Assembly (NCBI RefSeq): GCF_037975245.1
Contig: NC_092579.1
Coordinates: forward strand, 14,120,678-14,184,677
From: Apostichopus japonicus
Lineage: Eukaryota > Echinodermata > Holothuroidea > Aspidochirotida > Stichopodidae
Reading direction: 5' to 3'
DNA: 64,000 nt
Position numbers and translations under genes: made by a program. How positions within the stretch are numbered: the first letter of the stretch is position 1; each line of letters opens with the position of its first letter. The notes under the pieces were generated by a model. That model did not search any database. It was given only the letters and a program-made list of their open reading frames with translations, and had not been told where the DNA came from. Positions 8,502 through 8,643 of this stretch are shown one piece after another.

Positions 8502-8643
8502 AGATGAGACTAGTGGAACACTAGTAGTTGTAACTCGGAGTTTCACGCTTTATTGCGATCTTCAGACAACTGCAGTTGTCTGAAGATCGCAATAAAGCGT
8601 GAAACTCCGAGTTACAACTACTAGTGTTCCACTAGTCTCATCT
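8502..8643. repeat. Perfect 142-bp palindrome
   Basis: Two 71-bp arms are exact inverted copies with no spacer, centred on CTGCAG between 8572 and 8573. The symmetry breaks at 8501/8644. (TA)n lies directly on the left and about 70 bp to the right. A perfect palindrome this long is normally unstable, so it is either young, such as a head-to-head insertion of a repeat end, or an assembly fold-back artefact. Confidence 0.95.
8575..8618 (+). ncRNA. Hammerhead-ribozyme-like core (repeat-borne)
   Basis: In order: GTTGT (stem I 5', 8575-8579), CTGAAGA (8580-8586, fits CUGANGA), a CGC-AATAAA-GCG hairpin (stem II), GAAA (8601-8604), a minimal stem III (CT..AG), then GTT (NUH), and ACAAC (8614-8618), the complement of GTTGT. 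Predicted cleavage is after 8613. Stem I extends one further A-T pair. A T.T mismatch next to the core, where a purine-pyrimidine pair is usual, may weaken it. Very short stem III is known for hammerheads of Penelope-like retroelements and retrozymes, so this may be such a repeat end. The palindrome places an identical copy on the minus strand at 8527-8570. Confidence 0.4.

Follow-up and report, generated by a model that had tools for sequence, protein, structure and literature searches.

The stretch of Apostichopus japonicus DNA analyzed here (contig NC_092579.1, 64,000 nucleotides, hereafter the window) carries an exact palindrome whose two 71-bp arms, 8502–8572 and 8573–8643, meet with zero spacer at a centre between 8572 and 8573. 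The arms are fully complementary, and mismatch starts at 8501/8644. Together with a run of non-palindromic bases on its right, the palindrome makes up an insert of 214 bp (8502–8715) that lies between two TA arrays (Table 1). No further copies of the arm or of 8644–8715 rose above chance 11-mers within the window. Since (TA)n on both sides would mask it, no target site duplication can be read. Nearby tRNA-derived repeats likewise end in (TA)n, so the array on the right could be a tail instead of belonging to the target. The repeats in question are two SINE-like copies (345–533 and 26148–26339) that are 94% identical, both with tRNA matches in Rfam and one with a match in ARAGORN.

Table 1 Features of the insert, its flanking arrays and the hammerhead layouts in its arms
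Feature	Positions	Strand	Basis or remark
(TA)35 array	8432..8501	.	Abuts the left edge of the insert
Exact palindrome, two 71-nt arms	8502..8643	.	Arm comparison
Mirror hammerhead layout	8526..8571	-	Predicted cut 8532/8531
Minimal type I hammerhead layout	8574..8619	+	Sequence, descriptor, shuffles, dimer fold
Stem I	8574-8579 with 8614-8619	+	6 bp
CUGAAGA	8580-8586	+	Core
U10.1	8587	+	Mismatched with U11.1
Stem II	8588-8590 with 8597-8599	+	CGC with GCG; loop AAUAAA
U11.1	8600	+	
GAAA	8601-8604	+	Final A is A15.1
Stem III	8604-8606 with 8610-8612	+	A-C-U with A-G-U; loop CCG
H17	8613	+	U; predicted cut 8613/8614, after GUU
7-bp hairpin, 3-nt loop	8620..8636	+	Immediately 3' of the hammerhead; mirror copy at 8509-8525
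72 non-palindromic bases	8644..8715	+	Right of the palindrome; short inverted repeat inside (about 8662-8684)
(TA)33 array	8716..8781	.	Abuts the right edge of the insert

To the right of the insert, 8814–8925 reads by eye as a probable first coding exon that has both a signal peptide and a GTAAG donor. Its ATG at 8814, about 170 bp from the palindrome, follows a plausible splice acceptor (also by eye). Pfam searches of the open reading frames (ORFs) near 8814 gave nothing above the cut-off, and comparing a piece of the gene neighboring the insert with the Protein Data Bank gave nothing useful (best E 0.12). Farther along the window, separate ORFs at 40612–42166 and 50141–51247 match successive stretches of two proteins, a ubiquitin-conjugating enzyme and a KDEL receptor, and we take them as probable exons. 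The window also holds a tandem array at 21958–23951 (274-bp unit, about seven copies, 92% matches) and a satellite-like array at 44235–45108 with nested periods of 69, 138 and 274 bp.

Palindromes between TA arrays are hard to sequence and assemble, and an exact 142-bp palindrome in just this setting could have been generated from a single real arm as an assembly or library artefact. We consider such an origin barely credible: the insert continues with 72 different bases on the right but ends at TA on the left, and Penelope palindromes of this layout are described in passages of a published study (PMC3846280).

Hammerhead layout in the palindrome arms

An earlier note, made from the DNA letters alone, had placed a hammerhead-ribozyme-like core inside each palindrome arm, with CUGANGA, GAAA, a minimal stem III, a 6-bp stem I and an NUH cleavage site in the right order. 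Descriptor and pairing analysis bear this out on both strands, where we found all of these elements together with the A15.1-U16.1 pair and three stems in order (Table 1). The span first proposed for it, 8575–8618, had the right location but was one base too short at either end. On the palindrome, the motif is placed with precision: the centre sits 1 nt outside stem I, at the 5' edge of the ribozyme.

The same note held the layout to be improbable by chance, and shuffling agrees. We defined a looser descriptor (stem II of at least 3 pairs, stem III of at least 2 pairs closed by A15.1-U16.1, an NUH site, stem I of at least 4 pairs, 10.1 and 11.1 free) and a strict one set to what the arm itself shows (stem III of 3, stem I of 6). 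Over the whole window, just the two mirror sites matched the looser descriptor. Dinucleotide shuffles of the whole window contained a strict site in 5 of 2000 cases and a looser site in 60 of 2000 (0 and 2, respectively, in an initial 60 shuffles), where the strict cut-offs were fixed post hoc, after the arm was seen, and the two arms amount to one independent event.

The mismatch at 10.1/11.1 had been the main doubt about the motif. According to passages of PMC3088659, stem II of natural hammerheads can begin with a U10.1-U11.1 mismatch, which had earlier been found to permit more cleavage than any other mispair. In the axolotl hammerhead HHR_Amex2, helix II likewise starts from a U-U mismatch; its cloned repeat reached 22% self-cleavage in 1 h, and dimers cleaved much better (passages of PMC7229834). 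We collected comparable cases in two pattern scans of viral contigs with both 10.1 and 11.1 left open. The matches listed covered 190 loci and, with identical stretches merged, 57 CUGAAGA and 96 CUGAUGA hits. A full hammerhead was defined by a stem III of at least 3 pairs, an NUH site and a stem I of at least 4 pairs, with at least 9 bp in the two together; 15 CUGAAGA and 30 CUGAUGA hits among the matches listed qualified. U-U occupied 10.1/11.1 in 25 of these 45 (7 of the 15 and 18 of the 30). The other states, again among the matches listed and given as CUGAAGA/CUGAUGA, were G-C (6/11), G-U (2/0) and A-U (0/1). U-U is the commonest state at these positions in the CGC/GCG context among the viral-contig matches listed, in a count that merges identical stretches, still includes related phages repeatedly and samples one stem II sequence (CGC/GCG).

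Fixing 10.1 as T in a further viral-contig scan (24 loci) gave the same picture, with T at 11.1 in seven of seven clear hammerheads. When the downstream flanks of these seven were shuffled, equal pairing arose in no more than 2.5% of 200 trials. A looser test was also passed by two weak cases, one with T and the other with G at 11.1, and a first count under a shorter stem III limit had T at 11.1 in 6 of 12 and another base in 0 of 12. The published observations (PMC3088659, in part) and the viral-contig counts largely remove the mismatch as a doubt about the motif. A U10.1-U11.1 mismatch is no ground for discarding hammerhead candidates.

The arm shares the CUGAAGA-U-CGC...GCG-U-GAAA core and stem II base with viral-contig U10.1-U11.1 hammerheads at seven distinct loci. 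Unlike the arm's, their stem III is mostly longer (4–14 bp), and they lie in other genomes. A MAFFT alignment of the seven aligned stem III poorly, and these CUGAAGA loci derive from a pattern based on the arm itself, so that a covariance model made from them would be circular. Patterns specific to its stem III had no matches in genome_contigs, a prokaryote collection, and none in viral_contigs. An earlier gapped-pattern search for relatives had returned one viral-contig match, on a contig that looked phage-like by eye.

None of the curated hammerhead covariance models in Rfam matched the arm. Across the whole window, the search returned two tRNA matches only. The region 8450–8750 produced 39 matches, none reaching its gathering score (the hammerhead family RF02275 had 15.1 bits against 52), and we judged the leading ones to be unrelated hairpin-rich families, as fits a long hairpin. 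Searched on its own (8565–8640), the arm matched no hammerhead family at E ≤ 10 and had two weak unrelated matches. The Rfam test is insensitive to the U-U form, since none of the three tested among the seven viral-contig CUGAAGA hammerheads with U-U reached a gathering score.

Folding of one arm, two copies and the whole palindrome

A single copy of the motif folds poorly as a ribozyme. For the 46 nt alone, the predicted ribozyme fold has −3.6 kcal/mol against an optimum of −6.3 kcal/mol and a probability of 0.0009. The 52-nt arm is no more stable than shuffled versions of it (z −0.14), and the 142-nt direct part (z −1.32) has an optimal fold other than the ribozyme.

Two copies behave differently in prediction. 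Stem III is near-palindromic, so that two copies can fold as a double hammerhead, and this was the optimum of an unconstrained cofold (−21.6 kcal/mol). Both stems I form between the copies and stem II within each, and stem III extends between the copies with one C-C mismatch. With stem III randomised at its seven inner positions, a double hammerhead was obtained in 69 of 3000 cases and its energy was reached in 731 of 3000. Against dinucleotide shuffles, the dimer energy was ordinary, with 227 of 1000 matching it and 231 of 1000 matching the gain over monomers.

The hammerhead layout might nevertheless be a chance match in a fold-back element or inverted duplication of some other origin, with no ribozyme ancestry. 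The missing Rfam hammerhead match, the weak monomer fold and the post hoc cut-offs would all fit, and an event seen in 5 of 2000 shuffles is expected somewhere when very many windows are scanned. We find this explanation doubtful, given how few shuffles contained a strict site, how few stem III randomisations made the double hammerhead the optimum, and the agreement to 1 nt between ribozyme edge and palindrome centre. In addition, the U-U mismatch recurs in nature and is not a random defect.

As RNA, the palindrome is predicted to form a perfect 71-bp hairpin of −129.1 kcal/mol, and the 221 nt from 8500 to 8720 fold to −144.1 kcal/mol (z −21.8). Each arm is the antisense of the other, so an RNA that crosses the centre should snap into this hairpin. 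The hammerheads lie on opposite strands, so a single transcript cannot form a dimer in cis. Moreover, the complement of the motif would be transcribed first and zip from the centre, right beside stem I, so that the ribozyme should not form here. Activity of the present copy, which the earlier note had left uncertain, finds no support in these predictions, with a hairpin far more stable than the ribozyme folds. In the model, the ribozyme of this palindromic copy should be inactive in cis.

Such a hairpin could itself be what matters at the locus. Co-transcribed with the neighboring gene, whose apparent first coding exon starts about 170 bp rightward (by eye), the palindrome would yield double-stranded RNA that might be diced to small RNAs or might affect the gene. 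The perfection and stability of the 71-bp hairpin are what this possibility predicts; an unselected recent inverted insertion accounts equally for the perfection, and we rate a role of this kind as very unlikely.

Origin of the insert

We favor, with moderate confidence, the reading that the insert is a head-to-head terminal fragment, 214 bp long, that derives from a Penelope-like element (PLE) or a non-autonomous relative and came to lie within a (TA)n tract. The link to PLEs is drawn from the type of motif, the head-to-head layout and the AT-rich site. The insert is PLE-like in motif and layout rather than a proven member of the group.

According to passages of PMC7761336 and PMC6155905, PLE hammerheads are of the minimal type I form, without helix III or loop-loop contacts, sit in pseudo-LTRs and may self-cleave through dimers. 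The insert resembles these PLE/Terminon hammerheads in its weak stem III, in the dimer fold available to it and in showing no evident loop-loop contact; its motif and predicted fold are those of a minimal type I hammerhead that could act as a dimer. Unlike the many PLE hammerheads said there to lack helix III, the arm keeps a 3-bp stem III. In Penelope itself, as described in parts of PMC3846280, pseudo-LTRs can be inverted, some carry palindromes at their 5' ends, head-to-head arrangements are the most frequent of the inverted layouts with self-priming as the likely cause, and simple AT-rich targets are preferred; those parts do not mention hammerheads. The insert shares the head-to-head inverted layout, with a palindromic junction, and the AT-rich site, and we infer that it is a terminal repeat.

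The insert departs from PLE/Terminon elements in further respects. Searching 40 of the window's 233 listed ORFs (at least 60 amino acids) revealed neither a reverse transcriptase nor a GIY-YIG domain; a solo terminal fragment would lack the reverse transcriptase. No second direct copy, as in a direct or tandem pair of pseudo-LTRs, is found within the window, and the palindrome should block activity in cis. As a possible start of a PLE ORF, we rejected the open frame 8596–8814 (73 codons stop to stop), which is unremarkable in length and has no Pfam match.

The earlier note had called a minimal stem III a hallmark of hammerheads in both PLEs and retrozymes. The PLE half of that statement agrees with the dimer fold and with how weak stem III is, but the window has no direct tandems of the retrozyme kind. 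Nevertheless, the insert might be a piece not of an autonomous PLE but of a metazoan non-LTR retrozyme, a small element that carries type I hammerheads, is non-autonomous and spreads by way of circular RNA. Animal retrozyme RNAs measure about 170–400 nt, according to passages of PMC7229834, and the insert is likewise small, has no coding capacity that we could find and shows the type I layout. It also resembles the axolotl retrozyme hammerhead HHR_Amex2, as described in the same passages, in its U-U at the base of helix II, its short helix III and its better fold as a dimer. It differs from HHR_Amex2 in that the window contains no direct tandem repeats of about 150–400 bp with type I hammerheads, stem I appears from its sequence to be a plain 6-bp helix without evident canonical loop 1-loop 2 contacts, and the arms are inverted. 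On balance, a retrozyme origin seems unlikely, though it deserves consideration.

On the PLE reading, a short terminal fragment of the element (a PLE or a non-autonomous relative) would have entered the (TA)n tract. One study found a PLE protein that cleaves AT-rich DNA and a PLE hammerhead that cuts only when protein is present; mutants left insertion in vitro unaffected, so that a role in mobility is not established by that work (passages of PMC11167929). The copy may have folded back at the 5' edge of the ribozyme, either in reverse transcription or while the second strand was made, and recopied 71 nt, which would give the head-to-head arms. Priming of the cDNA through stem I does not fit, as the ribozyme would then remain as a spacer, yet the spacer is zero. 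Where relatives stand in tandem, stem III would let two direct copies pair and cut as a dimer; in the present copy, RNA spanning the centre would take up the hairpin and the ribozyme would be switched off in cis.

A possible marker of inverted copying

The palindrome, the hammerhead and the TA site are each of an already known kind. Among the literature matches listed, none dealt with hammerheads within PLE palindromes of the head-to-head kind, in a search that left the key PLE-hammerhead papers outside its reach. How Penelope-type elements make their inverted copies is a step left open by PMC3846280, in the parts drawn on here. It is a speculative and distinctly unlikely proposition that head-to-head hammerhead palindromes keep arising as one class of insertion and that the cDNA turns back in them precisely at the ribozyme's 5' edge. 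If such a class did exist, the palindrome would preserve a stage of PLE-type replication that those who described it have inferred but not shown, and copies of this kind would be self-silenced sources of hairpins. Should further copies in the host bear out the PLE reading itself, the place of the palindrome centre with respect to the ribozyme would provide a sequence marker for Penelope-type inverted copying.
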